Origin: Planosporangium thailandense
Lineage (GTDB): Bacteria; Actinomycetota; Actinomycetes; Mycobacteriales; Micromonosporaceae
DNA length: 64,000 nt
NCBI RefSeq assembly: GCF_011947195.1
Contig: NZ_JAATVY010000010.1
Coordinates: 1-64,000, forward strand
Direction of reading: 5' to 3'
The translations under genes and the position numbers were made by a program. Under the pieces are notes generated by a model that was given only the letters and a program-made list of their open reading frames with translations, was not told the DNA's origin and made no database searches. How positions within the stretch are numbered: the first letter of the stretch is position 1; each line of letters starts with the position of its first letter. Positions 9,651-56,108 of the stretch are shown here, in pieces.

Positions 9651-9671
9651 GACGCGCTCTCCCTCTCCAGG

Positions 9672-13122: not shown

Positions 13123-13289
13123 ATAAGCGGGAGTGTCAAGGCAGGGCGATCTTCACCACGCCTGCGCCCGGACGCTCACCAACGGCCACTGCATGGTGCG
13201 GGCCGTCGCCACCGCCCGGTTGCTCCGTCGCCGACCTCCCCGTTGCCGCTGTGGCACCCGCGCGGGTTGACGGCGCACCGCACCCGCCC

Positions 13290-13410: not shown

Positions 13411-13451
13411 ACCCACTGAGCGGGACGCGTGATCCCGAGGAGGTCCATCAC

Positions 13452-13670
13452 ATGGCTGACGCCGCGCTGTCTACCCCTACCGCGACACCGACTCCGGCGC
13501 CGATCCCGCTGCGCCACCTACTGCCCTGGGCGGTCTTCGGGCTGTTGCTGGCTGCCCTGGCGATCTACTTCGTCGGTGCCGAACAGGGCGCCACTTCCCT
13601 GATCGGCGGCCACTGGGTGCACGAGTTCACCCACGACGGCCGGCACCTGCTCGGCTTCCCCTGCCACTGA
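13452..13670 (+). CDS. cbtB: Cobalt transporter subunit CbtB
   Basis: 72 aa protein with one membrane segment (about 25-45) and the family's His-rich tail, WVHEFTHDGRHLLGFPCH. CbtB is the small partner of CbtA in B12-regulated cobalt uptake; the histidines and cysteine probably bind Co2+. The start is ATG 13452 after GAGGAGG. It is the first gene behind the cobalamin riboswitch and lies 18 bases before cbtA. Confidence 0.93.
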   Translation: MADAALSTPTATPTPAPIPLRHLLPWAVFGLLLAALAIYFVGAEQGATSLIGGHWVHEFTHDGRHLLGFPCH

Positions 13671-13688
13671 CGGCCGGCGATCGCAACC

Positions 13689-15178: not shown

Positions 15179-15296
15179 CAGCGACCCGGACGGCAAAGCC
15201 CCACGGACAGCAAACGCGTCGTCGCCGGGCTGTCGCCATATCGGCAGGTACCGGGGGCAGCCAGCCTTGAGTTCATCAACGCTGATGCGCCCTGCA

Positions 15297-15491
15297 TCAC
15301 TCCGGCTCTGGTCGCCGGTTGTACCGCTCCAGCGTGGCTCGATCAGTGGAGCCCTCCTGGAAGATCAGCTCCCAGGGGCCGGTGTTCACGTCCATCTCCT
15401 TGCCGAAACCCACCCACTTGCCAGCCATACGTCGCCCCGTGGGCTCGGCGAGCAGCTGCCAGTCGGTCCGCCCAAACCGGCAGTGCGTCAC
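15297..15491 (-). CDS. Small hypothetical protein
   Basis: 64 aa from GTG 15491 (a TTG at 15518 would add nine residues). It has a compact, protein-like composition: a tryptophan-rich beta-type pattern (DWQLLAEPTG, KWVGFGKEMDVN, GPWELIFQEG) followed by an amphipathic TDRATLERYNR tail. No family was recognised and no strong ribosome site is visible. It is divergent from the membrane protein at 15568. It may be spurious, but its composition differs from the Arg/Ala-rich shadow frames nearby. Confidence 0.4.
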   Translation of the reverse strand: MTHCRFGRTDWQLLAEPTGRRMAGKWVGFGKEMDVNTGPWELIFQEGSTDRATLERYNRRPEPE

Positions 15492-15567
15492 AGAGCCGTT
15501 GTCGGCCGGCCCGGCCAACCCGGAGGCGCTTCACGCAGACGTTGACCGGGCACCCTACCCTGACGCT

Positions 15568-16332
15568 GTGTTATCGAATGACAGCACAGCGTCCGCCGAG
15601 TACGGGCAGCAGAAGGTCATTCAACGATCGCGACTGTTCGTCGTGCTTCCCGCGGCGGCGCTTGTCGTGCTCGCGGTCGGCCTGGTCTGGGAAATCGTGC
15701 GGACCAATATGGACGGTTCCGTGGTTCACCGGTGGCCATGGGGCTTCTCGTTGTTGCCGATCGACACCGCCGCCACGCTGGTGACGGCGGTAGGCGGACT
15801 GATGCTCGCACGTGCGCAGTACGCGCGGACCCAACGGCCATCGCTCGGCTTCAGCGTAGATGCCAAAGGAGCGAATCCTGAGGACGCTGTCGGGGCCGAG
15901 TGGTGGCAGCTCCACATATTCAACGGCGGCCCGGGCCTGGGGGTGGTCAGCCTGGTCGAGTACCGTGCGCAGTTCCGTGACGGCGGTCGCGGTCACGAGG
16001 GGCGCGGTTCTTGGTGCTCGCTGAGCGACGTCAGGACTGTTCTGCGCGATCACGGCCTCGAAGACCAGCGCGACTACTACCTGGTGTGGCTCGGGAAAGG
16101 CGCTCCTCTCACCCCTGTCCAGCGGGCACGAGACGGATGTCTGCTCGCAACGTTCAACAGGCGCGCCCTCGGTGCGCTGGCGGTGTTCGACATCAGGCTG
16201 CGGGTGCGGGACAGCGTCGGGGACGAGCACGAAAGGGTCCTGCAACTGGTTCACCATCTGCCGAATGCCGTCGCGGAAGCTCTCGGCAAGCAGCGGCAAC
16301 GTACGGGGGACGACGGCTCGCGCCGGTCGTGA
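15568..16332 (+). CDS. Hypothetical membrane-anchored protein
   Basis: 254 aa. Two hydrophobic segments at the N-terminus (about 20-45, LFVVLPAAALVVLAVGLVW, and 60-85) are followed by a soluble domain of about 165 residues with a mixed alpha/beta pattern (WWQLHIFNGGPGLGVVSLVEY, YYLVWLGKGAPL, ALAVFDIRLRVRD). The layout resembles actinobacterial two-helix membrane proteins of unknown function. The start is taken at GTG 15568, just before the first membrane segment; the frame is open further upstream but without protein-like character. No function is assigned. Confidence 0.6.
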   Translation: MLSNDSTASAEYGQQKVIQRSRLFVVLPAAALVVLAVGLVWEIVRTNMDGSVVHRWPWGFSLLPIDTAATLVTAVGGLMLARAQYARTQRPSLGFSVDAKGANPEDAVGAEWWQLHIFNGGPGLGVVSLVEYRAQFRDGGRGHEGRGSWCSLSDVRTVLRDHGLEDQRDYYLVWLGKGAPLTPVQRARDGCLLATFNRRALGALAVFDIRLRVRDSVGDEHERVLQLVHHLPNAVAEALGKQRQRTGDDGSRRS

Positions 16333-16365
16333 TGCGTGGGTCGTCCAGTGGGTGATACTGGCATC

Positions 16366-16704
16366 GTGATCGACGAGGACGAGACCTTCGACCGGCTGGT
16401 AGCGGCCGCGCGCGCCCAGCTGGCCGCGGGAGTTTCCCTCGAGGAGATCATGGCATTCCTGCGCCGCGAGGGCCTGTGGCAGCTCCAGTCCATCAAAGTC
16501 TTGAGGTGGGCCACAGGCGTGGGTCTGGCGGAGGCGAAGCACCTCATCCACACGAGCGCTACGTGGGCCGATCAACGACGGGCCGCCGACGAGTTGCACG
16601 AGGTGTTGACCCAGGCGATCACGGACCTGGTGGATTCCATCGACGCCGACGGCTGCGTCGACTTGACCGATTACCAGACAGGCCCCGACCTGGTGGGCAG
16701 CTAG
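16366..16704 (+). CDS. Small protein with bL12 C-terminal-like motif
   Basis: 112 aa from GTG 16366. The segment SIKVLRWATGVGLAEAKHLIH resembles the C-terminal domain of ribosomal protein bL12 (IKVIREVTGLGLKEAKDLV) in pattern, preceded by a helix (SLEEIMAFLRREGLWQ) and followed by an acidic helical tail. Small stand-alone bL12-like proteins of unknown role occur in actinomycetes. It may fold back on ribosome-associated factors, but that is speculation. Its stop overlaps by four bases the end of the convergent STAS gene. Confidence 0.6.
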   Translation: MIDEDETFDRLVAAARAQLAAGVSLEEIMAFLRREGLWQLQSIKVLRWATGVGLAEAKHLIHTSATWADQRRAADELHEVLTQAITDLVDSIDADGCVDLTDYQTGPDLVGS

Positions 16705-17027
16705 GCGGCGCCGGCCTTGCCCGCGCGGGTGAGCGCGTCGAGAACACCGGTCACCGTCAGTGCCCGGAGCACGTAACCGCGCGGCCGGGTGAGGACGAAC
16801 TCCAGGCCGTGCTGACGTGCCGCGTGGGACGCGACGACCAGCGCGCCGATGCCCACCGAGTCGATGAACGCCAGGCCGCCGACGTCGACGACGATGCGGG
16901 CGGGACGTCCCGCGACGGCACCGGTCAGCGCCGCGCGGAGCTGATCGACCGTGGTCAAGTCAGCGTCACCGACAAGGGTGATCACGAACTCGTCGCCGTT
17001 CGAGCGCGTGGCGCAGGTCAGTTTCAC
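16701..17027 (-). CDS. STAS-domain anti-sigma factor antagonist
   Basis: 108 aa, a single STAS domain as in SpoIIAA/RsbV. The phospho-acceptor motif is present: VDVGGLAFIDSVGIGALVVA, with Ser in DSVGIG. Such proteins, when dephosphorylated, bind anti-sigma kinases and free a sigma factor. It is downstream of the two-component pair (80 bases after the response regulator) in the same direction, so it may belong to the same regulatory unit. No partner kinase (RsbW) is visible here. Confidence 0.88.
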   Translation of the reverse strand: MKLTCATRSNGDEFVITLVGDADLTTVDQLRAALTGAVAGRPARIVVDVGGLAFIDSVGIGALVVASHAARQHGLEFVLTRPRGYVLRALTVTGVLDALTRAGKAGAA

Positions 17028-17107
17028 GGGGCCTATCGTTCCTTACCGTCGGCCTGCTGTGGGCCCGGCTCCCCGCCCTTGAACCGGAAAGAGGGTTCCA
17101 TGAACGG

Positions 17108-17794
17108 TCACGCCGGAGGGTGGGCCAGGTACGTGAGTACCGCGCCGACCCGCCGGTGCATCGTTGGTTCGTCGGTCAGTCCGAGCTTGCTGAAGATCGA
17201 GTTCACGTTCTTCTCGACGGCCGAGACGCTCAGATGAAGGTGTGCGGCGATCGCGGCGTTGGTGCGCCCTGCCGCCATGCCCTCGAGCACGTCCCGTTCC
17301 CGGTCGGTGAGCCGGCTGAGCGGCGAGGTTTCCTGACGCGCGCGGCGGTGCACGAGTCCTTCGACGACAACGGGGTCGATCACGCTGTCTCCGGCTGCGA
17401 CGGCCCGGACCGCGGCCAGTAGCTGGCTGCGGTCGCCGACGCGGTCCTTGAGCAGGTACGCGAAGCCGGTCATGCCGTCCTTGAACAGTTCGAGCGCGTA
17501 GTCGGGGTCGGCGTGGTTGGACAGCACCACGATGCCGAGGTCGGAACGCTTCTCCCGCAGTCGGTGCGCTGCCGCGACGCCCTCGAGCGTGTGCGTCGGC
17601 GGCATCCGGATGTCGGTGATGACGACGTCGGGGTGGTGTTCGTCCACCGCCGTCATGAGCTGCTCGGCATCCTCGACCGAGGCGACGACGAGGACCTGCC
17701 CGTCGAGTTCCAGTAGTTGCCGGGTGCCCTCGCGGACGAGGTAGTGGTCGTCTGCGAGGACCACCCGGAGCGGCGTATCAGGCATTTGCGACAT
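17108..17794 (-). CDS. NarL/FixJ-family response regulator
   Basis: 228 aa. The receiver domain (about 10-130) has the acidic pair DD (LADDHYLVREG), the phospho-acceptor Asp in VVITDIRMPPT, and the conserved Lys in LLKDRV. The C-terminal LuxR-type helix-turn-helix (about 160-220) reads LTDRERDVLEGMAAGRTNAAIA...SVSAVEKNV. ATG 17794 is preferred because GGAGAT precedes it, giving a 17-base overlap with the kinase gene. It would be phosphorylated by that kinase and probably activates nearby targets. Confidence 0.92.
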   Translation of the reverse strand: MSQMPDTPLRVVLADDHYLVREGTRQLLELDGQVLVVASVEDAEQLMTAVDEHHPDVVITDIRMPPTHTLEGVAAAHRLREKRSDLGIVVLSNHADPDYALELFKDGMTGFAYLLKDRVGDRSQLLAAVRAVAAGDSVIDPVVVEGLVHRRARQETSPLSRLTDRERDVLEGMAAGRTNAAIAAHLHLSVSAVEKNVNSIFSKLGLTDEPTMHRRVGAVLTYLAHPPA

Positions 17795-19766
17795 TGGCCA
17801 TCTCCGAGATCGGGAATCGTGCCACGACAGTAGTGCCGACGCCGACGGTGGAGCTGATCTCGAGCCGCCCTCCGATCGCTTCCACGCGGTCACGCAGCCC
17901 TGCCAGGCCCGATCCGGTGGCGGTCACCGCGAAACCGCTGCCGTCGTCGGTGACCGCCACCTGGAGCCCGTCGGCGGCGAGCGGTCGGACGACGACCCGG
18001 GCGCGCCCGGCGCCGGAATGCTTGATCACGTTGGTGGTGGCTTCGCAGACGACGTAGTACGCGGCGGTTTCGACCGCCGGCGGGAATCGCGCGTCCGTCA
18101 ACCGGGGATCCACGTCGACCGAGACGGGGATCGGCAACTGGTCGGCCTGCGCTTCGATCGCTGCGACGAGACCGCGGTCGCTGAGCAGCGGGGGGTGGAT
18201 GCCCCGGACGAGGTTGCGCAGGTCGGCGAGCGACCGCTGCGCCTGTGCGTGCGACTGCGCCGCGATCTGTCCCTCGGTCGTCTCGGCATCGAGCGTCGAA
18301 CGGAGCAGTTCCAGCCGGGCGAGCAGGACGACGAGCTGTTGCTGAATCCCGTCGTGCAGGTCGCGCTCGAGCTGCCGACGCGCGCGGTCCTCGGCCCGTA
18401 CCAACCTTTCGCGGGAGGCTGCCAGCTCGTCGACCCGACGCGCGAGAGCGCTGGCCAGATCGGCGCCTCGCAGGGCGAGCGCGGCATGCCGGGCGAGGAC
18501 CGTCAGCAGGCGGATGTCCTCGTCCGACCACCCTCCCCGCCGTGGTCCGCACTCGATCGCGCCGATCTCTTCCCCGGCTGCCGTGAGCGGCACGACGAGC
18601 CGCGCGTCGCCGGTGCGGGCTGACCCCGCGTGCACCTGAAGGTCGGGCTGGCACCTGATGTCGATCCAGGCGACATCCATGCCGGTCGCGATCGTGTCGG
18701 CGGTACGCGTGGCCAGGGCGCGCGGGTCGCTGCCCTCCAGCGACTCGGCGAGATGGCGCACGAGGGCGTGGCCACGAATCCGGCCCCCGCTCACGAAACG
18801 GTCGACGCGGGCCTCCAGCCAGACGCGCAGCGGGTGACCGGTCACCGCCGCGGCGGCTGCGACCAGTACGGCCGGCAGGGCGCCGTGGTGGCCGGCGGCT
18901 GCCGCGGCCGCGGTGTAGATGGTCAGGACGAGAGCCAGGACGACCCCGTAGGCGAGGGTGCGGGCGGCGTACAGCTCGACCTGCAGCAACCGGTACCGGC
19001 GTACACCGGCGAGCAGGGCGATCGGCAGCACGCCGACGACCGGTACGAACACCACCGCCCACCCACGGCCGAGCGCGTGGGTGCCGACGGGCGTCGCGAC
19101 GAGCATCAGCGCGAGCACCGCCGCGATCGTGAGCGGCCAGAGCAGCTGTTGACGGCGCTCGCCGGTCGCGCCCCGCACGCGTACCACGAGGATCGCGAGC
19201 CCGACGAGTACGAGCAACGGCAGCACACCGGACACGTCCACCGGTCCCGAACCCCAGGGGAGCGGGGCCGGCGCCGGCAGCGCGGTCCGGTGGAAGTGGA
19301 GCGCGAGGTCGGTCTGGCGTGAGGTGACCGCCGCGACGACCGGGACGACGACCACGGCGAGGACACCCACCGTCACCATGCCCCACGAGGTACGGCCCCG
19401 TACCCGTTCGTCGGGGAACACGGCGAGGAGGATCGCGAGAGCGGCGAAGCCCGACCAATAGATCACATTTGCCGCCACGGCGGCTGCCCAGGGCAGCCAT
19501 GCTGCGCTGTCCCCGCTGGTCACGCCGAGGACGCTCGCGATCGCGAACGCGGCGAGGTGGCACGTGCCGACGGCGGTGAGAAGACGCGCGCTCGCGTGCT
19601 CCGGACGCGCTCGCAGCGCGACGAGTCCGGCCAGCCACCACACCACCGCCAACGCGACGGGGAGCAGAACCTGCGGGACCGACGCGGTGAGCGCCGCCCC
19701 GACGCATACCGCGGCGCCGACGGCGCCCGTCGCCGCCAGCACCCCGGCCACCACCCGACTCGTCAT
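17778..19766 (-). CDS. Sensor histidine kinase (HisKA_3/NarX type) with membrane and GAF-like regions
   Basis: 662 aa. The N-terminal half contains about nine or ten membrane segments. A GAF-like region follows (about 390-480, with TGMDVAWIDIRC and EEIGAIECGPRR), then the HisKA_3 dimerisation helix with the phospho-accepting His in ERDLHDGIQQQ, and an ATPase domain (VVCEATTNVIKHSG, VTDDGSGF, GLAGLRDRVEAIGGRL). Start ATG 19766 is right before the first hydrophobic segment; the longer frame upstream is Arg/Pro-rich and unlikely. Its stop overlaps the response-regulator start. A small membrane protein gene is divergent from it. Confidence 0.9.
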   Translation of the reverse strand: MTSRVVAGVLAATGAVGAAVCVGAALTASVPQVLLPVALAVVWWLAGLVALRARPEHASARLLTAVGTCHLAAFAIASVLGVTSGDSAAWLPWAAAVAANVIYWSGFAALAILLAVFPDERVRGRTSWGMVTVGVLAVVVVPVVAAVTSRQTDLALHFHRTALPAPAPLPWGSGPVDVSGVLPLLVLVGLAILVVRVRGATGERRQQLLWPLTIAAVLALMLVATPVGTHALGRGWAVVFVPVVGVLPIALLAGVRRYRLLQVELYAARTLAYGVVLALVLTIYTAAAAAAGHHGALPAVLVAAAAAVTGHPLRVWLEARVDRFVSGGRIRGHALVRHLAESLEGSDPRALATRTADTIATGMDVAWIDIRCQPDLQVHAGSARTGDARLVVPLTAAGEEIGAIECGPRRGGWSDEDIRLLTVLARHAALALRGADLASALARRVDELAASRERLVRAEDRARRQLERDLHDGIQQQLVVLLARLELLRSTLDAETTEGQIAAQSHAQAQRSLADLRNLVRGIHPPLLSDRGLVAAIEAQADQLPIPVSVDVDPRLTDARFPPAVETAAYYVVCEATTNVIKHSGAGRARVVVRPLAADGLQVAVTDDGSGFAVTATGSGLAGLRDRVEAIGGRLEISSTVGVGTTVVARFPISEMANVANA

Positions 19767-19950
19767 CAGCCCATTCTGGGGCCTCGATCCGGTGGTGACA
19801 CGGTGGCTGGCCACCGACCCCTCCTGTGGTGGACCTCCGCTCACCGCTGCGGCACGCCTGCCGGAACACGGTGGTCGGCAGGGCGGCACGCGACGGGTGG
19901 GCGCTCGTAGCGTCCTCGGCATTCATCAGCCACGTCTGTGAGGAGCTGAA

Positions 19951-20361
19951 ATGGCCGTACGTAAGAGCAAGGCCTGGATCGCGTTCGTCGTCATCAACGC
20001 CCTTGTGACATTCTTCGGGCTCAGCTACATCTTCTTCCCGGGCAGGGACGTCGTGAAGGCCGGCTACAAGACCGAAGGCGTGCTCGCGCTGCCGGCGGTG
20101 GTGTGGGGAACCTACGTTGTGCTGTCCGCGCTGGCCATGCTCGTGGTCGCGACCACCGGACTCCGTCGGGGGGAGCGGTGGGCACGACGCGCCGCCCTCT
20201 ACGAGTTCGCGTTTCTGGCAGCAGTCGTCGTGATCGAGCCGGACCCGGTCGTACCCACGATCTTCGCCGCCATTCTCGCGGTAGCGCTCTGGCGGTCCGC
20301 CCGCACGTCGAAGCGTGGGACGGCGCCCGGTGAACTCGCCGCTCCGGCCAAGCCGGCCTGA
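19951..20361 (+). CDS. Small four-helix membrane protein
   Basis: 136 aa with four hydrophobic segments (about 8-28, 45-70, 80-95 and 98-115) and an Ala/Pro/Lys-rich tail. A good AGGAG ribosome site is 9 bases before ATG 19951. The family was not recognised. It is transcribed away from the sensor kinase gene and could be a target of that two-component system (inference). Confidence 0.75.
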   Translation: MAVRKSKAWIAFVVINALVTFFGLSYIFFPGRDVVKAGYKTEGVLALPAVVWGTYVVLSALAMLVVATTGLRRGERWARRAALYEFAFLAAVVVIEPDPVVPTIFAAILAVALWRSARTSKRGTAPGELAAPAKPA

Positions 20362-43617: not shown

Positions 43618-43858
43618 TAACTCCTCCTTGGCCCGCTGGGTGAGCACGGTGGCGTCTGGGAGCCGCGTCGGTTGGCCGGCTGCGATGGAGCGAATGTCAG
43701 GGTAGCGGCTCGTGTCGATCTCTGTACATGCCGTTGGGGAGCGCGGGCGGTCGAGGTAGCCGGATCGCAGGCCGAGGCTGGGCAGCGTGCCGCCGGCCGT
43801 CCCGGGAGATCTGTACCGCCCGCCGTTTGAGTCCAGACCACCGGGGCAGCCGGACGGC

Positions 43859-45283
43859 ATGGACCGTATGGACCGTATGGACCATGCAGACCATGGGGCA
43901 TCCGGCGCCGACGGCCCGGCGTGCGCCGCGGACCTGACACACCGCATCCTCGCGCGGGTCCCGGTCGGGATGGGGCCGGAGGCGGTCGTGGTCGACCCGG
44001 TCGGCGGGTGCGCGTTCGTGGCGTGTTCGCGCAGCAACGGGGTCACCGCCGTGGACCTGGAGCGCGCCATGGTGCGGTGGCGGGCGGAGACCGGCCGCGA
44101 GCCCATCCCACTGATCCACGACGCGCCGACCGGGCGGCTGTTCAGCGCCGACGCGCGGTCGGACACCGTGACGGTCCTGCGCGCCGACACCGGTGAGCGG
44201 CTCGCCCAGGTACGGGTGGGGGAGTACCCGTCCGGGCTCGGCTACCACCCGGGGCTGCGGCGGGTGTACTCGGGCGACACCGCCGCCGGCACGGTCAGCG
44301 TGCTCGATGTGGACCGGATGGAGCTGGTCGGCACGGTCCCGGCGGAGCTCGGCGCGGGGAGCATCGCCGTCGACGTGACGCGCGGCCGCGCCTACGTCGC
44401 CAACTTCATGTCGGCGTCGGTCACCGTCTTCGACGCGCAGACGCTGCAGCCACTGGGCCTGCTGCCGGCGGGCAACGGTCCGTGCAAGGTGGTGGTCAAC
44501 CCGGTGGCCGACCACCTGTACGTGGCGAACTCGTTGCAGGGCACCGTCATGCGGATCTCCCTGGCTACCGGGGAGGCCATCGACGAGCTGCCGGTGGAGC
44601 GGGCCCCGGTCGGGCTGTGCGTGTCGCCGGACGGCCGCTGGATCTACGTCTGCAATCGGGGCGCCGGCACGGTGAGTGTGCTCGACGCGGCCAGCGGCCG
44701 GGAGTCGCACCGCATCCAGGTGGAGCAGGCACCCGGGGACTGCGCGGTCGATCCGCGTACCGGCCGGCTGCTCGTGTCGAACGCCGGCGCGGGGACGCTG
44801 ACCATCGTGGACCGGCCGTGGCTGTCGGGACCGGCCCCGGCAGCCACGCACCCCCTGGTCGGCCGGCCGCTGCCCGCGTTCGCACTGCCCGACGCGCACA
44901 CCGGGCAGGTGCGTACGACCCGGGAGTGGGCCGAGAAGAAGTACGTCATCAACTTCTTCGCCAGTTGGTGAGGACCGTGCAACGCGGAGGCGCCGGTCAT
45001 CGAGGGGCTGCGCCTGCGTACCGCCCGGTCCGGGCTGGACATCATCAGCATCAACGTGTGGGAGAGCGTGGACGCGGCGACCGAGGCCCGCAACTTCGCC
45101 GGGATCTGGGGCATCGACGGGCCGGTCCTGCTCGACGAGACCGGCGAGTACGCGGCGGCGCTGGGGATCCGGGGCGTGCCGACGAACGTGCTCGTCGACG
45201 CGCACGGCATCGTACGGGGCGTGGGGCTGACCGCGCCGCAGGAGCTTGACGAGGCGGTGGACGCGCTGCTGGCCGAGGAGTGA
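43859..45283 (+). CDS. Probable selenoprotein: YVTN-type beta-propeller fused to a thioredoxin-like domain, Sec at 371
   Basis: 474 aa if the in-frame UGA at 44969-44971 is read as selenocysteine. Residues 30-340 form a seven-bladed-type propeller with repeated YVAN/VTVFD/GTVSVLD units. A TlpA/ResA-like thioredoxin domain follows: FALPDAHTG, KKYVINFFASW, then UGA, GPC, NAEAPVIEGLR, and the cis-Pro loop GVPTNVLVD. The UGA falls exactly where the first Cys of WCGPC belongs, and the frame stays open and family-like for 104 more codons. There is no signal peptide. The start is ATG 43859, at a 9-base repeat coding MDRMDRMDH; GTG 43787 is possible. The alternative, a nonsense mutation of TGC, cannot be excluded. 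A stop-respecting annotation would wrongly end the gene at 44971. Confidence 0.72.
44969..45002 (+). promoter_or_regulatory. Candidate bacterial SECIS hairpin at the UGA codon
   Basis: Starting at the UGA, the RNA can pair 44969-44971 with 45000-45002, 44973-44977 (GACCG) with 44994-44998 (CGGUC), and 44979-44980 with 44992-44993. U44978 is bulged, G44972/A44999 mismatch, and the loop is 44981-44991. A hairpin beginning at the UGA with a bulged U near the apex is the general form of bacterial SECIS elements bound by SelB. The pairing was drawn by eye and not energy-calculated; in GC-rich coding sequence such hairpins also arise by chance. Confidence 0.35.
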
Positions 45284-45340: not shown

Positions 45341-45934
45341 TCACGACCGCGCGGCCGTGTGCGGCGGCGCCGAGCAGTTGAGGTTGCTGAGGTTCTTGTG
45401 AGCCAGTTGCAGGTGCTGGCGGAGCACCGGCACCTGGCTGGCGGCGAACTGGCGCACCTGGGCGTTGCTCGCCCGCTTCGCCACGATCGCGTACATGTGC
45501 AGGTCGAGCACGTGCATCGGGTACATGGCCGGCGCGTACGAGCAGTCGAACGGCCCGCCGCGCACGCTCGACCAGATCTTGAGCAGGTTCTGCTCATCGG
45601 CGCCGGGCGCCGACGGTGCGGTGATTCCGAAGGAGCTGTCGAGGTGCTGCAGCGCCTGGGCCTGCTTGGTGTGGTCGGTGACCATCCGCTGGCCGAACGA
45701 CCGCACCGCGGCACTGGCGGCCCGGTTGGCGGCGAGGTGGCCGGCCGCGATCTCGAACTGTGCGTCGCGGCTGGCCTCGGTCAGGAACATCCGCTCATGG
45801 CTGTTCAGCGGGCCGCTCGGCGACGGTCCGCCGGGCGACGGCGTCTGCGCGGGTGCGGCGAGGGCGGCGGCCGGTAACGACGTCACCGCCGCGCACACCG
45901 CGGCCACCATGCCGGTGGCGAGTCGTACTCGCAT
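45341..45934 (-). CDS. Secreted DUF4142 protein
   Basis: 197 aa. A signal peptide (about 1-27, ending LAAPA) is followed by a Pro/Ser-rich spacer and a helical DUF4142 domain: ERMFLTEASRDAQFEIAAGHLAANRAASAAVRSFGQRMVTDHTKQAQ is the typical first half, with the HLQLAHKNL end. Such ferritin-like bundles are found in the periplasm or cell wall; their function is unknown. A GGAGG ribosome site precedes the ATG. Confidence 0.85.
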   Translation of the reverse strand: MRVRLATGMVAAVCAAVTSLPAAALAAPAQTPSPGGPSPSGPLNSHERMFLTEASRDAQFEIAAGHLAANRAASAAVRSFGQRMVTDHTKQAQALQHLDSSFGITAPSAPGADEQNLLKIWSSVRGGPFDCSYAPAMYPMHVLDLHMYAIVAKRASNAQVRQFAASQVPVLRQHLQLAHKNLSNLNCSAPPHTAARS

Positions 45935-47614: not shown

Positions 47615-48637
47615 TCAAGCGGGGAGGTCCTCCCGGCGGGCGGCCGGCTCACGGCGCTGGAAGAGCGCGATCAGGTACCCGAGCGAGGGGAAGAGGATGA
47701 CGGCGCCGGCCGCGATGACGATCAGGACCGGGTCGAGCACGGTGCTCGGCGCGGCGACCCGCGCGTAGTACGCGTCGGGCGGCAGCATGTACGGGTACTG
47801 CGCGACCGCCCAGCCCCACATCACGGCGGCGACGGCGACGGCGGCGCCGACCCGGACCAGGACGTACCGGCGGACCACGAGCAGCCCCATCGACGCCAGC
47901 CCGGCCACCGCGGACACGATCGCCACCGGCAGGGCCCGGTGGGTGAGCCCGTGGAACAGCCCCGGGGCGTCGAAGTACAGCACCGGGATCCCGGCCAGGA
48001 CGACCACGCCGACAACCGCCCCGGTGATCATGGCCCGGTGCCGGAACACCTCGGCCAGCTCCGGGCGGCCGAGCCGCACGGCGTCGTGGCACAGGTACAT
48101 CGCGGCCAGGTAGGCGCAGGTGCCGATGGCCAGGATGCCACCGAGGAACGAGGTCGGGTTGACCCAACTGGTGACGACGTCGCCGCGGGCCAGCCCGAGC
48201 GGCACCCGGCCGGACGCGATGCCGCCCGCGACGGTGCCCAGGAAGAACGGAGTGAGCACCGACGACAGCGCGAAGACCCCGCCGAACAGCCGCTGCTGCC
48301 ACAGCGCCATGACCGCCTTGCGGAAGGCGAACGCCGCGCCGCGGCCGATGATGCCGATGGCCGCCAGGGTCAGCGGGATGTAGAGCGTGGACATCACGGA
48401 GGCGAACACCGGCGGGAAGGTGGTCCACAGCAGCGTCACCACGAAGATCAGCCAGACGTGGTTGGCCTCCCAGATCGGACCGATCACCTCTTCGATCAGT
48501 TCCCGCTGCGGGAGGCCGCGGCGGGGATTGCCGGCGAGCAGGTCCCAGACCCCGGCACCGAAGTCGGCGCCGGCCATCAGCGCGTAGAGGGTCAGCCCGA
48601 TCCACAGGATGGCCAGTGTGCCCTGGGCGGCGTTCAT
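47615..48637 (-). CDS. cydB: Cytochrome bd oxidase subunit II
   Basis: 340 aa with eight or nine membrane helices. Typical segments: LTLYALMAGADFGAGVWDLL near the N-terminus, EEVIGPIWEANHVWLIFVV, FPPVFASVMSTLYIPL, AFRKAVM, and late PYMLPPDA. CydB pairs with CydA in the quinol oxidase that works at low oxygen and resists cyanide, NO and H2O2. Its ATG overlaps the stop of cydA (ATGA at 48634-48637). Confidence 0.95.
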   Translation of the reverse strand: MNAAQGTLAILWIGLTLYALMAGADFGAGVWDLLAGNPRRGLPQRELIEEVIGPIWEANHVWLIFVVTLLWTTFPPVFASVMSTLYIPLTLAAIGIIGRGAAFAFRKAVMALWQQRLFGGVFALSSVLTPFFLGTVAGGIASGRVPLGLARGDVVTSWVNPTSFLGGILAIGTCAYLAAMYLCHDAVRLGRPELAEVFRHRAMITGAVVGVVVLAGIPVLYFDAPGLFHGLTHRALPVAIVSAVAGLASMGLLVVRRYVLVRVGAAVAVAAVMWGWAVAQYPYMLPPDAYYARVAAPSTVLDPVLIVIAAGAVILFPSLGYLIALFQRREPAARREDLPA

Positions 48638-50034
48638 CGCCGGGCCGCGCCCCGCTCGGACGGCACACCGTGCTCCTGCGGCGCGACGTCGGCGCCGCGG
48701 CGGGCCAGTCGGCGCAGCACGTACACCGACGCGATGGTCAGCACCACGTACACGACACCGACGATGATCAGCCCGCCGTACAGCCCGGGGGCGGGGTTGG
48801 CAGCGTCGCTCGTGCGCAGGTACCCGTAGACCACCCAGGGCTGGCGGCCGACCTCGGTCACCACCCAGCCGGCCTCCAGCGCGACCACCGCGGCGGCACC
48901 CGCGATCGAGGCCAGCCACAGGAACCACCGCACCCTGGGCAGGTCCCGCAGCCGCCACCACGAGATGAGCAGCCACAGCCCGAGCAGCAGCAGCCCGGTC
49001 CCGATCCCGACCATGGTGTCGAAGGCCAGGTGCACGATCGTGACGGGCGGGCGGTCGGCCGGCGGGAACCGGTCCAGGCCGATGACGACCGTGTCCGGGC
49101 TCTCGCCAACCAGGATCGACAGCATGTTGGGGATCGCGACCGCGTACAGCATCTCCCCGTTGTGGTAGACCCCGCCGACGTGCAGCGGCACATGCGAGCC
49201 GGTCCGGTACAGCCCTTCCAGCGCGGCGAGCTTGGCCGGCTGGTAGTGGGCCAGGAACCGGGCGGCCCAGTCGCCGACGACGAGCTGGAACGGGGTGACG
49301 ATCGCCGCGAACGTGAACGGCACCAGGAAGCCCAGCCGGTGGTAGCGGTCGCCGCGACCGCGGACCAGGCCGACCGCGTACACCGACGCGGTGAGGAACC
49401 CGGCCACCATGAACGCCGCCAGGATCATGTGGACGGTCTGCGGCGGCGTGGCCGGGTTGAACATGGCCCGCCACGGGTCGACGTGGGTGATCCGGCCGTT
49501 CACCAGGTCGAACCCGCGCGGCTGGTTCATCCACGCGTTCGCGCAGACCACGAAGAACGCCGAGGCCACGCCGGACACAAAGACGGGTACGGCGGTCAGG
49601 AGGTGCGCCCGCGGCGACAGCCGGTCCCAGCCGTACAGGTAGATACCGACGAAGATCGCCTCGGTGAAGAAGGCGAACCCCTCCAGCGCGAACGGCAGCC
49701 CGAACACGTGCCCCCAGCTACCCATCAGCCGCGGCCACAGCAGCCCCATCTCGAAGCTGAGGATCGTGCCGGAGACCGCCCCGATGGCGAACAGCACGCC
49801 CATCGCCTTCGCCCAGCGGTGGGCCAGCTCGGTGTAGGTGCCGTCGCCGGTGCGGATGCCGCGCCACTCCATGAACGCGGTCAGGCCGGGCAGCCCGACC
49901 CCCAGACAGGCGAGGATGATGTGCCACCCCAACGACAGGGCCATCTGCGACCGGGCGGCGACCACGTCCAGCGGGCTCGCCGGGCCCGACAACCAGAGGC
50001 CGGGCAGCGGCGCGCCGGCCGTTGGCGCCGTCAT
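48634..50034 (-). CDS. cydA: Cytochrome bd oxidase subunit I
   Basis: 466 aa. Heme-binding features are present: MALSLGWHIILACLGVGLP with the proximal His at 38, GTILSFEMGLLWPRLMG with the conserved Glu, FFTEAIFVGIYLYGWDRLSP, and PWVVYGYLRTSDA. The Q-loop region is short, as in the actinobacterial/CIO-like group. A GGGGAGG site lies before ATG 50034. No cydDC genes follow in this window; maturation genes must be elsewhere. Confidence 0.94.
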   Translation of the reverse strand: MTAPTAGAPLPGLWLSGPASPLDVVAARSQMALSLGWHIILACLGVGLPGLTAFMEWRGIRTGDGTYTELAHRWAKAMGVLFAIGAVSGTILSFEMGLLWPRLMGSWGHVFGLPFALEGFAFFTEAIFVGIYLYGWDRLSPRAHLLTAVPVFVSGVASAFFVVCANAWMNQPRGFDLVNGRITHVDPWRAMFNPATPPQTVHMILAAFMVAGFLTASVYAVGLVRGRGDRYHRLGFLVPFTFAAIVTPFQLVVGDWAARFLAHYQPAKLAALEGLYRTGSHVPLHVGGVYHNGEMLYAVAIPNMLSILVGESPDTVVIGLDRFPPADRPPVTIVHLAFDTMVGIGTGLLLLGLWLLISWWRLRDLPRVRWFLWLASIAGAAAVVALEAGWVVTEVGRQPWVVYGYLRTSDAANPAPGLYGGLIIVGVVYVVLTIASVYVLRRLARRGADVAPQEHGVPSERGAARR

Positions 50035-50179
50035 GGGGATTGACCTCCCCCGCGACGGCCGCACCAAACGCCGGGCGGCGCTGACGGCCGCCAAGTGGTT
50101 TTCCGGCCGGTCCACGGGTAAGGGCCGCCGGGGCGGCCGGGAACCGGGTACCCGCCGGCCGCGAAGCGAAGGGACCGTC

Positions 50180-51274
50180 ATGATCGACCACTCCGTCCTC
50201 GATCTGTCGGTCCGTCGCGGTGACGGTCCGCCCCCGGAGCGGGTGCTCGTGGTGTCGGCCGACATCGGGGGCGGGCACGACGCGACCGGGCGGGCGCTGG
50301 TCGAGCAGGTCGAGCAGGCGTGGCCGGCGGCCCGGCTGCGGTGGGTGGACACCCTCGACGTGGTGGGTCCGCGCCTGGGCGAGGTGTGCCGCCGCACGTA
50401 CGTGTTCAACGTCGAGCGCACCCCGTGGCTGTACGACTTCTTCTTCGCGTCGCTGTGGCGGCACCGCTGGTTCGCGAGCGCCTCGAAGCGCCTCGTCGGC
50501 GCGTTCGTCGGCCGCCGGCTCGCGCCGCTGGTCGTCGGGTACCGGCCCGACCTGATCCTGTCGACGTTCCCGCCCGGCACCGCCGGCCTGGCCTGGCTGC
50601 GCCGCAAGGGCCGGCTGTCCGCGCCGATCGGCGCCTGGGTGTCGGACTTCTCGCCACACCCCTTCTGGATCTATCCGGAGATCGACCGGAACTTCGTCGC
50701 CGACCCGCGCGCGGTACCGGTGGCGCTCGCCGCGTCACCCGGTGCGCCGGTCGCCGCGTGCGCCCTGCCGGTGGCGGCGCGGTTCCACCCGGGCGACCGC
50801 GCCGCGGCGCGCGGCGTCACCGGACTGGCGCACGACCGGCTGGTCGTCCTGGTCGCCTGCGGTTCGTACGGGTTCGGCGCCGTCGAGGAAGCCGTGCGGG
50901 CGGTGCTGACGGCCGGCGACGCCGTGCAGGTCGTGGCGGCGTGCGGGCGCAACGAGGAGCTACGGCGGCGGCTGGCCGCGCTGGGCGAGCCGCCCCGACG
51001 GCTGCTGCGGCTCGGCTGGGTCGACACCATGCCGTCGCTGCTGCGCGCCGCCGATCTCGTCGTCACCAACGCCGGCGGCGCCACCGCGCTGGAGGCGGTG
51101 GCGACCCGCCGGGAGGTCGTGATGTACCGGCCGATCGCGGGGCACGGCGCGGCGAACGCGGCGCTGATGACGATGGCCGGCCTGGCCGAGACCTGCGACA
51201 GCCCCGCTCAGCTCGCGGCGCTCGTACGATCGATGCTTCCCGACTCCGACCGGGAGAACAGCCGGCCGCGGTGA
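50180..51274 (+). CDS. MGDG-synthase-like (GT28) glycosyltransferase
   Basis: 364 aa. The N-terminal MGDG_synth domain has VLVVSADIGGGHDATGRALVEQV and TYVFNVERTPWLYDFFF. The C-terminal GT28-type half has VVLVACGSYGFGAV, RLGWVDTMPSLLRAADLVVTNAGGATALEA (donor binding) and HGAANAALM. It would glycosylate diacylglycerol or a related lipid at the membrane. AAGGGA precedes ATG 50180. Its TGA overlaps the start of the following DMT gene (GTGA), so the two are translated together. Confidence 0.85.
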   Translation: MIDHSVLDLSVRRGDGPPPERVLVVSADIGGGHDATGRALVEQVEQAWPAARLRWVDTLDVVGPRLGEVCRRTYVFNVERTPWLYDFFFASLWRHRWFASASKRLVGAFVGRRLAPLVVGYRPDLILSTFPPGTAGLAWLRRKGRLSAPIGAWVSDFSPHPFWIYPEIDRNFVADPRAVPVALAASPGAPVAACALPVAARFHPGDRAAARGVTGLAHDRLVVLVACGSYGFGAVEEAVRAVLTAGDAVQVVAACGRNEELRRRLAALGEPPRRLLRLGWVDTMPSLLRAADLVVTNAGGATALEAVATRREVVMYRPIAGHGAANAALMTMAGLAETCDSPAQLAALVRSMLPDSDRENSRPR

Positions 51275-52212
51275 ACGGCGCCACCCTCACCTTCGTCATC
51301 GGAGTGCCGACCGCGCTCATGTCGGCCGCCAGCTTCGCGGCCTCCGGGTTTCTCCAGCACCGCGCCACGCACGAGGTACCCGCCCGGGCCACCGGTAGCC
51401 CGCGGCTGCTGCTGGATCTGCTCGGCCATCCGCTGTGGCGCTGGTCGATCGGGCTGGCGATCCTGGGCTTCGCGCTCCAGGTGATCGCCCTTCGGTACGC
51501 GCCGCTCATCCTGGTCCAGCCGCTGCTGGTGACCGGGGTGCTCTGGTTCGTGGTGTTCGCGGCGGCCAGCTACCGCGTACGGCCCGACCGGACGCTCGTC
51601 ACCGGCATCCTGCTGTGCCTGTCGGGGCTGTCCGCCTTCCTGGTGCTGGCCCACCCGTCGCGGGCGAGCGGGCGGCGGGGGTTCGGCGGTCTCTGGTCGG
51701 CGCTGCCGCTGGCGCTCGGGCTGGCCGTCACCGTCGCGATCTGTCTGACGCTGGCCGCCACCGTCGCGCGCCGGTGGCGCGCGCTGCCGCTGTCGCTGGC
51801 GACCGGCGTCTGCTACGGGGTCACCGCGAGCCTCGTCCGTAGCCTGCAGAACGACGCGGGCGGCGGTCCGGCCGGCGTGTTCGCGCGCTGGCAGCTGTAC
51901 GCGCTGATCCTGCTCGGTCCGGTGGGTGTCCTGCTCAACCAGAACTCGTACCAGGCCGGCCGGATCGGCGCACCGGCCCTGACCGTCATCACCGTCACCG
52001 ACCCGCTGGTGTCGCTGGCCGCCGGCGTCGTGTGGCTGGGGGAGTCGATCCGTACGGGCGTCTGGTACGTGACCGGCGAGGCGCTCGCCCTGTTCGCGGT
52101 GACCGGCGGGGTGCTGTTGCTGGCCTGGCGCGCCTCGTCCGGCCGGGTTAACCCGTTGGCGGTGCCCGCACCGCCCGACGGGCGAGGTGTCCAACGTCGT
52201 GCCGCCGGGTAG
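51271..52212 (+). CDS. DMT-family transporter (NIPA/EamA-like), copy 1
   Basis: 313 aa with nine or ten membrane segments. Two internally related halves, each containing an LVEP/LVQP-type motif: ALRYAPLILVQPLLVTGVLWFV and LTVITVTDPLVSLAAGVVWLGESIRTG. Start GTG 51271 overlaps the GT28 stop. Similar proteins are annotated as DMT or NIPA-type Mg2+ transporters. The coupling with a glycolipid synthase suggests a lipid or ion role at the membrane (inference). Confidence 0.8.
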   Translation: MNGATLTFVIGVPTALMSAASFAASGFLQHRATHEVPARATGSPRLLLDLLGHPLWRWSIGLAILGFALQVIALRYAPLILVQPLLVTGVLWFVVFAAASYRVRPDRTLVTGILLCLSGLSAFLVLAHPSRASGRRGFGGLWSALPLALGLAVTVAICLTLAATVARRWRALPLSLATGVCYGVTASLVRSLQNDAGGGPAGVFARWQLYALILLGPVGVLLNQNSYQAGRIGAPALTVITVTDPLVSLAAGVVWLGESIRTGVWYVTGEALALFAVTGGVLLLAWRASSGRVNPLAVPAPPDGRGVQRRAAG

Positions 52213-52221: not shown

Positions 52222-53130
52222 ATGGTCTACGCCATGGCCGTCTGCGCCGCGGCGCTCATCGGCATCGGTACCGCGATCCAGCAGCGCGCGGCCGCCCGCG
52301 CCCCGTCGGGGACGGAGCTGCACTGGCGGCTGCTGGGGTACCTGGTCCACCAACGGCTGTGGCTGTCCGGCATCGGCGTCGCGGTGTGCGGAAACGTCCT
52401 CGCCGGTATCGCGCTCGGCTTCGGCGGCGTCGCCCTGGTGGAGCCGCTCACGGTCACCGGGCTGCTGTTCGCGCTGCCCGTCGCGGCCGCCTGGAGCCGC
52501 TACCGGATCGGCCGGCGCGAATGGTCGGGCGCGCTGGCCGTGGTCTTCGGGTTGATCGCGTTCCTGCTCGCGGGAGAGCCGAGTCCGGGCCGCCGGCCGG
52601 ACGCGCCCGCGTGGCAGTGGGCGCTCGCCGCGGCGGCGATCGGGACGATCACGGCGAGCCTGGTCCATCTGGCCCGGCGGCTGCGCCCGCAGCACGAGGC
52701 GGCGGTCCTCGGCCTCGGCGCCGGCATGCTCTTCGGCCTGCAGGCCGCACTGACCAGTACCGCCATGCGACGGCTGTTCAACCACGGGCTGCTGGCGCTG
52801 CTGGTGTCCTGGACGCCGTACGCGCTCGTGGCGGTCGCCGTGGTCGGCATGCTACTGGCACAGAGCGCGTACAAGCTCGCCCCGCTGCCGGTGTCCTACC
52901 CGCCGGTCGCGGCCGCCGAGCCGATCGCCGGCATCGCCATCGGGATCGGGGTGCTGGAAGGTTCCCTGCGGATCGCGCCGCTGGCGCTCGCCGTCGAGAT
53001 CCTGGCGTTGGCGGTGATGACCGCCGGCGTCTACATCCTCGCCGCCACCCGCCTGGTCGAGGCGCACCACCGTCCGCACCACGTACCCCGCCCTCATCTC
53101 CGCTCCCACCTACCACCAGCGGGCCGGTGA
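52222..53130 (+). CDS. DMT-family transporter (NIPA/EamA-like), copy 2
   Basis: 302 aa, nine or ten membrane segments, starting 9 bases after copy 1. The halves again carry related motifs (GFGGVALVEPLTVTGLLFALP, PVSYPPVAAAEPIAGIAIGIG). The C-terminus is His/Pro/Arg-rich. Copies 1 and 2 may work as a heterodimer, as paired DMT proteins often do (inference). A third relative is at 61419-62321. Confidence 0.8.
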   Translation: MVYAMAVCAAALIGIGTAIQQRAAARAPSGTELHWRLLGYLVHQRLWLSGIGVAVCGNVLAGIALGFGGVALVEPLTVTGLLFALPVAAAWSRYRIGRREWSGALAVVFGLIAFLLAGEPSPGRRPDAPAWQWALAAAAIGTITASLVHLARRLRPQHEAAVLGLGAGMLFGLQAALTSTAMRRLFNHGLLALLVSWTPYALVAVAVVGMLLAQSAYKLAPLPVSYPPVAAAEPIAGIAIGIGVLEGSLRIAPLALAVEILALAVMTAGVYILAATRLVEAHHRPHHVPRPHLRSHLPPAGR

Positions 53131-53188: not shown

Positions 53189-54622
53189 TCACTCCGGATC
53201 CGGTGCGGCGGTCGGGGCGCGGTCGGCGGTCGCGGCCCGCTCCGCGGCCTGCTTGTCGGGCAGGTAGCTGCGCCGCGCCCGGAGCATGATCAGGCCGTTG
53301 GCGACGAGCGGCAGCAGCATGATCAGAAAAGTGTCGCGCAGGCCGGCGGCCTTGCTGGTCCCGCCCGGTCCGGCCAGCCAGTCGGCGATCAGCCCGAAGC
53401 ACACCGGGGCGACCGCCTCCGCGGCCAGCCGCAGCACCGTACGCGCGCTCTCGGCGCGCCCCCACAGCCACGGCGTGACGATGTCGAGCCGGGCCGCGTC
53501 CAGCGGCGGGTTCGCCGCGCCCAGCATCGCCGCCCCCACCACGAAGAACGGCAGCGCCACCGGCACCGACGTGGTCAGCAGACCGGGCGCGAACAGCACC
53601 GCCGTCAGCGTGTACGTCACGGCCGGCACCGTGACCCTCGCCTTGGGGCGGCCGTGCCTCAGCATGCGGTCGGCGAACCGGCCGCCGAGCACCGCACCGA
53701 CGATCGCACCCGCTCCCACCGCCACGACCAGGGCGGTCATCTGGTGCGTGGAGACGCCGAACCACCCCTCGACGAAGACCACGACGAACGTACGCAGGCC
53801 GGCGAAGAAGAAGTAGCCGATCGACGAGGCGACGATGAGGATCCGGATCGTACGGATGCGCAGGATGTAGGCGAAGGCCCGCCAGATCGACCGCCACCCC
53901 TGCAGCACCGCGCCGGGGCCGCCCTCGCCCGCCAGGGCGAACGGGTTGCCGCGTAGCCGCACGGGCGTCGCGTGCGGGATCTCGGCGGCGCCGGGCGGTA
54001 CCCGGCTCGCCCCGCCGCGGGCGGGCTCGGGCAGCCACCGGTGCACGGCGGCGGCCAGCGCGATGCCCAGCAGTCCCAGCAGCCAGAATCCGTACCGCCA
54101 CCCCAGCGCGACGCCGATGTTCCCGCCGGCGATCAGCCCGATGCCGGCGCCGATCATCTCGCCGGTCAGGATCCAGCCGTACACCTTGGCCCGCTCGCCG
54201 ACCGGGATGAGGTCGCCGATCAGCGAGGCGAGCAGCGGGCCGCCGGCCGCGATGACGGCGCCGAGCGCCAGCCGCGACAGCAGCAGCCACAGGTACGACT
54301 GCGCCGCCCCGCCGACCAGCAGCGCGGCGCTCCACAACACGATCGTGTAGATCAGCAGCCGTACCCGCGCGACCTGGTCGGCCAGCGCGCCCATCGGGAT
54401 GGTGGCGAGCGCCCCGATCCCGGACGACACCGTGGCGAGCAGGCCCAGCCCGGCCTGGCTGATGCGGAACGCCGACTCCAGCTCCCGGGCGAGCGCGCCG
54501 ACCATGCCCGTGTCGGCCGTGCCCAGGGCCAGGACGGCGGCCAGGATCAGGACGACCCGGGTCCGCGCCGGTCCGTTGAAGACCGACTCCGCCCGGCGGC
54601 GCAGGGCTGACAGCAAGCTCAT
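53189..54622 (-). CDS. MFS transporter
   Basis: 477 aa with about twelve membrane segments. Loop 2-3 motif GALADQVARVRLLI is a degenerate form of the MFS signature; GGPLLASLIGDLIPVGERAKVYGWILTGEMIG is the helix 4-5 motif C-like region typical of exporters. ATG 54622 is used; a longer frame upstream continues across the neighbouring divergent gene and is not believable. It lies divergent from the WS/DGAT gene, with about 120 bases between starts. The substrate is unknown. Confidence 0.87.
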   Translation of the reverse strand: MSLLSALRRRAESVFNGPARTRVVLILAAVLALGTADTGMVGALARELESAFRISQAGLGLLATVSSGIGALATIPMGALADQVARVRLLIYTIVLWSAALLVGGAAQSYLWLLLSRLALGAVIAAGGPLLASLIGDLIPVGERAKVYGWILTGEMIGAGIGLIAGGNIGVALGWRYGFWLLGLLGIALAAAVHRWLPEPARGGASRVPPGAAEIPHATPVRLRGNPFALAGEGGPGAVLQGWRSIWRAFAYILRIRTIRILIVASSIGYFFFAGLRTFVVVFVEGWFGVSTHQMTALVVAVGAGAIVGAVLGGRFADRMLRHGRPKARVTVPAVTYTLTAVLFAPGLLTTSVPVALPFFVVGAAMLGAANPPLDAARLDIVTPWLWGRAESARTVLRLAAEAVAPVCFGLIADWLAGPGGTSKAAGLRDTFLIMLLPLVANGLIMLRARRSYLPDKQAAERAATADRAPTAAPDPE

Positions 54623-54743
54623 CCGTGGTGACCCGGTGTGCGCAAACCTGTGCCCGCCGGGTACCCCCGCCTGCCCGGACGTAACGCGCCGGGGTTTGTC
54701 CACGGTTTCGCCCGGGTAGGCCGGCGCAGCCGATGGGAGGGCC

Positions 54744-56108
54744 ATGCACGGCACAGCGGGCTTGACCCGGACGGCGACCCGGTCCGGGCCGCGCACCGGC
54801 ACGGGGTACGGTCGCCGCGCCGGCGCCTGGCCGTTGCGCGCGGCCGACGCGTTCTTCCTGCACGTACAGACCCCGGCGGTGGCACAGCAGATCGGCGTGG
54901 TCCTGGAGTTGGGGCCGCCCGCCGGGCGTGGCCCGCTGTCGGTGGCCGACCTGACCGCGCTGCTGGCGCGGCGGCTCGGCGGGGTGCCCATGCTGCGCCG
55001 CCGGTTCGTCGCGCGTGGCCGGCTACGCCGCCCCGGCTGGATGCTCGAGCCGGAGGTCGACCCGGCGGCGCAGGTCCGTGGGCATCGCCTGCCCGCCGGC
55101 GCGACGGCCGCCGAGGCGGCCGTCGTGATCGACGAGTTCTGGTCGCAGCCGCTGCCGCCCGACCGGCCGCCCTGGCAGATCATGCTCGTCAGCGGCCTGC
55201 CCGCCAGCCGGGTGCTTCTCGCGATCAAACTGCACCACGCCCTGGGCGACGGGCTGTCCGCGATCGGGGCGCTGCGGCGGCTGCTCGACGACCGCCCGCC
55301 CGCACGGCTCGACGCGCGCCCGCGTGCCCGGCTGGACGCGTGCCCGCCCGCGAGGCGCGGCCGGGGCGGGTCGCTGGCGCGCGGGCTCATCCGGCTGGCG
55401 CGAGTCGGCCGGGCGCCGCGGCTGCCGATCAACCGCCCGATCGTCGACGCCCGGCGACGGGTGCTGTTCACCACGCTGGCCAGCGCCGACGTCACCCGCG
55501 TCGCGGCGGCGCTCGGGGTACGCGCCAGCGAGCTGATCCTGGGGCTGGTGGCGGAAGCGCTGCACCGGACAGTCCCGCCCGAAGGCGCGCCCGGTACGGC
55601 ACGCGCGATCGTGCCGGTGTCGGTCCGCCCCCGGCGACAGGGGAGCACCCACGGCAACTGGACCGGAGCCGTGGCGCTGGACCTGCCGATCGGGCGGATG
55701 CCGGTCGCGGCGCGCGTACGGGCCGCCCGCGAAGCGCTCCGCCAGAACGTGGCGGCGGGTGAGCCCGACGCCGCGTCGCTCGTGATGCGTCTCATGGGCG
55801 CGCTGCCCGCGCCGGCGCACCGGCGGCTGGCGCGAACCGTGTACACGAGCCGGTTCTTCAACATCATCGTCTCGCACCTGCCGGGGACGGGCCGGGCGAG
55901 CACGCTCGCCGGTGCGCCGATCCTCGCCGCGTACCCGGTCGTCGCGCTCGCCGACGGCGTGGGTATCGGGGTCGGCGCCATGCGCTGGGCGGACCGGACC
56001 GGGGTCGGTGTCATCGTCGACCGGTCGCTCGCCGGCACCGGCACCGCGTTCGTGGCCGCGTTCAACGCCGCCTTCGACTCCCTCGCCGTCGGCTCGGAGC
56101 TGCGCTGA
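54744..56108 (+). CDS. Wax ester synthase/diacylglycerol acyltransferase (WS/DGAT) family protein
   Basis: 454 aa. The catalytic HHxxxDG motif is in IKLHHALGDGLSAIGAL (about 162-168), and the ND-type region near GSTHGNWTGAVALDLP is recognisable. FNIIVSHLPGTG is a conserved block. The enzyme esterifies fatty alcohols or diacylglycerol with acyl-CoA, making storage lipid. A repetitive Pro/Arg/Ala stretch (ARLDARPRARLDACPPARRGR region, about 185-205) looks like a linker insertion. GGGAGGG precedes the ATG. Confidence 0.85.
   Translation: MHGTAGLTRTATRSGPRTGTGYGRRAGAWPLRAADAFFLHVQTPAVAQQIGVVLELGPPAGRGPLSVADLTALLARRLGGVPMLRRRFVARGRLRRPGWMLEPEVDPAAQVRGHRLPAGATAAEAAVVIDEFWSQPLPPDRPPWQIMLVSGLPASRVLLAIKLHHALGDGLSAIGALRRLLDDRPPARLDARPRARLDACPPARRGRGGSLARGLIRLARVGRAPRLPINRPIVDARRRVLFTTLASADVTRVAAALGVRASELILGLVAEALHRTVPPEGAPGTARAIVPVSVRPRRQGSTHGNWTGAVALDLPIGRMPVAARVRAAREALRQNVAAGEPDAASLVMRLMGALPAPAHRRLARTVYTSRFFNIIVSHLPGTGRASTLAGAPILAAYPVVALADGVGIGVGAMRWADRTGVGVIVDRSLAGTGTAFVAAFNAAFDSLAVGSELR

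Follow-up and report, generated by a model that had tools for sequence, protein, structure and literature searches.

A beta-propeller/thioredoxin gene that very likely reads an in-frame UGA as selenocysteine in Planosporangium thailandense and related actinomycetes

Does an in-frame TGA in a Planosporangium thailandense gene end a beta-propeller protein, or is it read as selenocysteine (Sec) in a longer protein that continues into a thioredoxin domain? The codon lies in the 64,000-nucleotide stretch that we analysed (positions 1 to 64,000 of contig NZ_JAATVY010000010.1; hereafter the window). We conclude that the gene very likely (probability roughly 0.93) reads UGA 371 as Sec in a propeller-thioredoxin fusion. 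The Sec machinery, the conservation of the codon and the constraint downstream of it are shown; decoding itself is inferred, with no measurement of selenium.

The reading frame and the protein it encodes

The gene occupies 43859..45283 on the forward strand and encodes 474 residues, with Sec as residue 371. From 43859 the frame runs to ...VINFFASW, meets TGA at 44969-44971, continues with GPC... and stays open until a second TGA at 45281-45283. The first TGA (U371) takes the nucleophile position of the redox motif, and the TGC at 44978..44980 (+) encodes Cys374, the presumed resolving Cys of the resulting UGPC motif. The initial annotation had proposed a single frame at 43859-45283 with TGA replacing the first Cys of WCGPC, and a thioredoxin fold completed past the TGA including the GVPT loop. 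Both claims held, the second by Pfam, profiles and model; its count of 104 codons past the internal TGA was off by one, there being 103 sense codons between the two TGAs. It remains possible that the true start is not 43859 and lies at 43877, the third ATG (MDHADHG...), which is near the aligned start of several homologues.

A plain list of open reading frames ends the propeller frame at the internal TGA (43787-44971), and a gene caller halting there would presumably truncate the gene. The length of the open frame downstream was set aside as weak evidence, as 2906 out of 20000 shuffles of its bases are likewise free of stops. The case rises above chance because thioredoxin homology flanks the TGA on both sides and because 15 further genes have the same layout.

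With the TGA read as a residue, Pfam finds YNCE/Lactonase-type propeller families followed by Redoxin, AhpC-TSA and Thioredoxin matches that span the TGA. The YVTN-type propeller covers residues 29-318 (43943..44812, +) and has 28 strands, which we read as seven blades; it is supported by AlphaFold2 (block mean pLDDT 82-98), by Foldseek (top match 1l0q) and by TIGR02276 repeats above the cut-off. The ResA/TlpA/DsbE-like thioredoxin domain, with the UGPC site and the GVPT loop, covers residues 334-465 (44858..45253, +; PF08534, E=6.7e-19), and sequence profiles place it with DsbE/ResA chains. Since most of this part fell below pLDDT 50 in the whole-length model, it was modelled separately, which gave a mean pLDDT of 77 and a ResA, 4nmu, as the top Foldseek match (TM 0.80); one of five models was confident, and the other four were much poorer. 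Two propeller cysteines, Cys56 and Cys209, are invariant in 12 aligned sequences and, by eye, also present in L074, another of the full-length genes described below.

None of the 16 full-length genes described below has a strongly hydrophobic N-terminal segment (highest 19-residue Kyte-Doolittle mean, 1.16). Hence, unlike ResA, the fusion protein is probably cytosolic, an inference from sequence alone that rests on the lack of any sign of a membrane anchor.

Conservation of the TGA codon and of the sequence beyond it

We scanned the genomes of 84,980 species with six seed peptides; as none of these covers the TGA codon, the scan could not favour Sec over Cys or the reverse. It returned 15 loci, 11 of them full-length (65-72% identity) and four partial (L038-L041), and all 11 full-length loci have TGA at the codon. 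In a Streptomyces sample, 7 of 392 genomes carry the gene at E 1e-60 with one TGA each, and the new Streptomyces carriers (L052, L054 and L056) have it at the homologous codon. Four of 341 genomes in the family of G355 (Microtetraspora malaysiensis) carry the gene at E 1e-40, all four already counted. Among 354 genomes of the family to which the window belongs (E 1e-20) the whole protein occurs only in the window genome, and four others match the propeller alone. A phylum sample (396 genomes, E 1e-40) gave two matches, the window's and one from a different class of the same phylum, which also has TGA at the homologous codon and shares ~45% identity over the part before it. The searches yielded 16 distinct full-length genes (10 Streptomyces, two Microtetraspora, two Actinoallomurus, the window and one from another class), of which 16 have TGA at the homologous codon and none has Cys.

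No full-length Cys form was found among the matches of the collection, Streptomyces, G355-family, own-family and phylum searches at their thresholds, which leave room for Cys forms that match more weakly or are more distant. The thioredoxin domain does have stand-alone Cys relatives, such as L040 (WCAPC). No plasmid record matches over 80% of the protein. Separately, the match of a propeller-only relative, L025 (G035:C33:119045-119704), includes one TGA, possibly a chance read-through of the frame end.

One criterion for a selenoprotein, that a UGA lie in frame where a redox-active Cys would be and that the sequence past it be conserved, is satisfied by all 16 genes; another, Cys homologues at the Sec site, which are usual companions of selenoproteins without being required, is not met. 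The initial annotation had held that a mix of TGA and TGC/TGT among homologues with conserved downstream sequence would support Sec, and that TGC/TGT at 44969 on resequencing, or decay of the downstream part in homologues, would refute it. The mix was not seen, every gene having TGA, and the downstream sequence is conserved; the 15 other genes show TGA at the codon equivalent to 44969; and the downstream part is intact in all 16.

The codons beyond the TGA are under purifying selection. In an alignment of 15 genes (L074 excluded), 12 pairwise comparisons gave dN/dS values of 0.08-0.42 for the part downstream of the TGA. For residues 394-474, differences at the three codon positions are 0.204, 0.201 and 0.434, and dN/dS is 0.08-0.43 (12 pairs). 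These results bear on the rival reading that the TGA is a true stop, with the propeller alone being made and the thioredoxin part a relic left behind by a nonsense mutation. In its favour, the plain list of reading frames ends there, and one carrier genome apparently lacks Sec machinery. Against it, all 16 genes have the TGA at exactly this codon and keep the frame intact past it, and residues 394-474 are constrained as just described. We regard a true stop as virtually ruled out.

Synonymous conservation was measured over 178 amino-acid-invariant columns, with Met, Trp and the TGA column excluded. Synonymous codon identity is above expectation by 0.468 in residues 376-393 (13 columns) versus 0.07 elsewhere (165 columns), and a single codon is kept in 10 of the 13 columns versus 23 of the 165 (Fisher 2.6e-6). 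No draw of 13 random columns in 20000 reaches the value for residues 376-393, and among the 166 contiguous windows of 13 columns this one comes first. Because the limits were chosen after 13 of the genes had been seen, the p-values are optimistic, and the rank over all windows is the fairer measure. We read this peak (44984..45037, +), which spans 13-66 nt after the TGA, as constraint at the RNA level; the gene's strongest synonymous conservation thus sits where a SECIS element belongs.

A SECIS-like hairpin is predicted at 44984..45019 (+), a fitting location for a SECIS, with the stem GCGGAGGCGC / GCGCCnnCGU and with G27 and U29 (numbering starts at the TGA) invariant in the 16 genes. Neither energy nor covariation lends it significance. 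Folding energy was not below that of shuffles in any of the eight sequences folded out of 16 (z -0.84 to +1.47), and we dropped it as SECIS evidence, as it is ordinary for the composition of those eight. Covariation amounted to one compensatory pair, which 37 of 500 shuffles equal. By eye, the apical loop does not meet the published rule (figure legend, PMC13188914) in some sequences. The hairpin is best described as a predicted, atypical SECIS-like element.

Selenocysteine machinery in the window genome and in other carriers

Absence of Sec machinery was a further outcome that the initial annotation said would refute it; we found the machinery present in the window's own genome (7.0 Mb, 98.5% complete). 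The tRNA-Sec scores 73.3 bits and is called SeC with anticodon TCA by ARAGORN, and selB (278 bits), selD (386) and selA (425) all exceed their curated cut-offs. Among 14 control genomes, the cut-offs were passed by tRNA-Sec in five, selB in two, selD in two and selA in one. A second tRNA-Sec match in the window genome (48.2 bits, above the cut-off) was rejected, being tRNA-Ser(TGA) according to ARAGORN; because of this match and the 5 of 14 controls that pass, only tRNA-Sec matches above 73 bits were counted. The selA gene adjoins selB, with the tRNA-Sec ~10 kb away (contig C25).

The same genome encodes three molybdopterin enzymes (L068-L070; contigs C24, C52 and C1 of G000), each with a TGA in frame within QARI-U-HS. 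From this motif we take them to be formate dehydrogenases. One TGA-containing molybdopterin enzyme lies ~4 kb from selD. The three sites were found with a looser motif scan and missed by two stricter ones. In L069 and L070 the UGA is followed by CCCCGGUCUGGGG, a hairpin whose GGU loop falls at nt 22-24 (numbering from the U). The predicted fold of L069 includes this hairpin, and that of L070 is a different one.

In the Streptomyces sample, selA occurs in 67 of 392 genomes, including all seven carriers (hypergeometric 3.3e-6, kinship ignored). Both selA and a tRNA-Sec match of at least 73.4 bits are found in 10 of the 11 named carrier genomes; the twelfth genome in that tRNA-Sec search, the source of L040, is a non-carrier. 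Overall, selA is present in 14 of the 15 carrier genomes tested (the window's own, 10 of the 11 named, and G442, G644 and G727), with the most distant carrier, G1409, outside the machinery counts. G355, the source of L028, has two selA genes; its tRNA-Sec family matches score 77.8 and 63.6 bits, and a third, at 48.4, is near the cut-off.

The exception is Streptomyces mexicanus Marseille-Q0842 (L032/G359), which keeps the TGA gene, with no selA and no tRNA-Sec above the cut-off (best match 45.3 bits). We assume an assembly gap or a recent loss, neither of which is shown; selenium-independent decoding is also possible. The idea that this genome is a natural knock-out, in which the gene should decay, was not borne out, as clear decay is not seen: the gene differs at three otherwise invariant sites (range in the other genes 0 to 10, with the window highest), and its 94 amino-acid differences to L036, against 86 for L030 and 83 for L052, are no clear acceleration.

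A second rival reading holds that the UGA is read as Trp or Cys by a near-cognate or suppressor tRNA, independently of selenium. Read-through of UGA by such tRNAs does occur in general, and it would account for the S. mexicanus carrier without detectable machinery. Against it, the 13 genes whose end codon is listed also end in TGA, so read-through would have to be specific to the internal site; all seven carriers in the Streptomyces sample have selA; and a Cys codon would serve equally, yet is unseen. We consider selenium-independent read-through highly improbable. The initial claim of a selenoprotein with UGA at the nucleophilic Cys is therefore supported by this evidence, with decoding itself remaining an inference.

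Genomic neighbours, possible function and place among known families

Three transporter genes lie 6-10 kb from the selenoprotein gene in the window: two of the DMT family (NF038012) at 51295..52119 (+; a tblastn span with gene ends unrefined) and 52222..53130 (+), and an MFS transporter at 53189..55228 (-; ORF limits) that is homologous to the MFS beside the gene in L027, L029 and L031. A DMT gene occurs in 10 of the 16 loci versus none of 22 control stretches (Fisher 1.7e-5), and an MFS gene in five, plus a short partial match in a sixth (L030), versus none of 22 (Fisher 0.009). The controls total 440 kb from nine carrier genomes including the window's own, and one of them (L064) is window 1-20000. 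The queries were drawn from five of the tested loci, and the counts include self-matches (four of the 10 DMT loci, three of the five MFS loci); the 16 loci are related and represent about five lineages.

In L031 the DMT, MFS and selenoprotein genes lie within 50 bp of one another on one strand. L034 has the same gene order, but its MFS match covers 304 of 485 residues. The MFS gene precedes the selenoprotein gene by ~60 bp in L029 and follows it by ~175 bp in L027. The more distant DMTs show 31-45% identity. No conserved enzyme partner was found among ORFs of at least 80 aa passing a G+C filter: besides the gene itself, only DMT and MFS recur in at least three other lineages (E 1e-8). Ten other scanned neighbours were varied (regulators, kinases, phosphatase, oxidase, ligase).

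Other features of these neighbourhoods may be recorded. The DMT genes form an adjacent pair in two loci, L033 (11217-11972 and 12092-12877) and the window. Window 47618-50607 (-), a segment that lies between the selenoprotein gene and the transporters, encodes cytochrome bd oxidase subunits I and II. Directly downstream of the selenoprotein gene and convergent with it, 45341-45934 (-) encodes a DUF4142 protein that is unmatched in the 11 other loci compared.

In the mechanism we propose, SelB and tRNA-Sec, guided by the RNA element just past the UGA, would insert Sec at residue 371. Sec371 would then attack a disulfide, or some other sulfur or selenium group in oxidised form; Cys374 would resolve the mixed selenosulfide, and the thiol system of the cell would re-reduce the site. 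That the propeller docks or holds the substrate is a guess, as is the substrate itself; the nearby DMT and MFS genes suggest a small molecule. We put forward only tentatively the inferred function: a seleno-disulfide reductase whose propeller holds the substrate and whose role is linked to the transport of small molecules.

A rival on function accepts the selenoprotein and takes the transporters as incidental, the protein being a general cytosolic antioxidant or protein-disulfide reductase. It is favoured by the lack of a DMT match in six of the 16 loci and of any MFS match in 10 of 16, by the merely 31-45% identity of the distant DMTs and by the varied kinds of the ten other neighbours. Against it stand the DMT genes in 10 of 16 loci versus 0 of 22 controls, the tight one-strand DMT-MFS-selenoprotein run in L031 and the MFS genes close by in L029 and L027. 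We give this alternative slightly less than an even chance. With the transport-linked seleno-disulfide reductase kept as our working reading, a bolder version is that the family is Sec-only, a cytosolic propeller-seleno-redoxin in which sulfur replaces selenium in no member, with an atypical, unusually long SECIS region (constraint to ~66 nt past the UGA) and a dedicated seleno-redox step that acts with DMT and MFS for a transported metabolite in actinomycetes; this too we would doubt rather than assert at present.

We compared the protein with known systems. Sec redoxins with a UxxC motif have been described as thioredoxin PF00085, thiol-disulfide isomerase-like cd02966 and 'Redoxin family protein' PF08534 (Table 1, PMC13188914); like the window protein they combine a thioredoxin fold with Sec first in UxxC, and unlike it none is listed with a propeller. 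As the entries of that table consist of domain ids and accessions alone, kinship of the PF08534 entry is not excluded. In both sequence and fold, the C-terminal domain has its closest solved relatives in ResA/TlpA/DsbE (CcmG), which are membrane-anchored, extracytoplasmic and Cys-based. The criterion of a thioredoxin fold with a WxxxC site and a cis-Pro loop (GVPT) is met, but the window protein has no anchor, a propeller in front and Sec, and ResA-like membership was rejected because the N-terminal signal or membrane-anchor criterion is unmet in 16 of 16 genes. YVTN/YncE/lactonase-like propellers (1l0q, 3vgz) are of the same propeller type, without the fused redox domain and the invariant Cys56 and Cys209 of the window protein.

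NHLRC2 likewise joins a thioredoxin-like domain to a beta-propeller (PMC6107167). Its thioredoxin part stands in front of an NHL propeller, and it is not known to contain Sec; membership was rejected, the window protein having the reverse domain order and YVTN instead of NHL repeats. The ResA-like selenoprotein model NF041054 (WAxxUGC_long), judged by its name to have Sec in a ResA-like domain, was rejected at 42.8 bits against a cut-off of 300 and for a Sec motif that differs by name. In NCBIfam release 20 no model except the generic YVTN repeat is above cut-off for this architecture. Table 1 of PMC13188914, which by its count covers 119 families, lists no propeller selenoprotein, and the word 'propeller' does not occur in the main texts of PMC13188914, PMC12013277, PMC5029168 and PMC9312934. 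A propeller-thioredoxin selenoprotein was thus not found in the open-access literature searched; a description elsewhere, or existing NCBI annotation of some members, is possible.

The propeller-thioredoxin protein would add an architecture, in a rare family, to the known selenoproteins. All known selenoproteins are now said to seem to have Cys homologues (deep-Sep, discussion of PMC12013277); a family whose full-length members number 16 with Sec and none with Cys would run counter to this. Among the carriers are several named, culturable strains of Streptomyces, Microtetraspora and Actinoallomurus, which makes the reading testable, and a Sec-only family would offer a natural test of what selenium does beyond sulfur.
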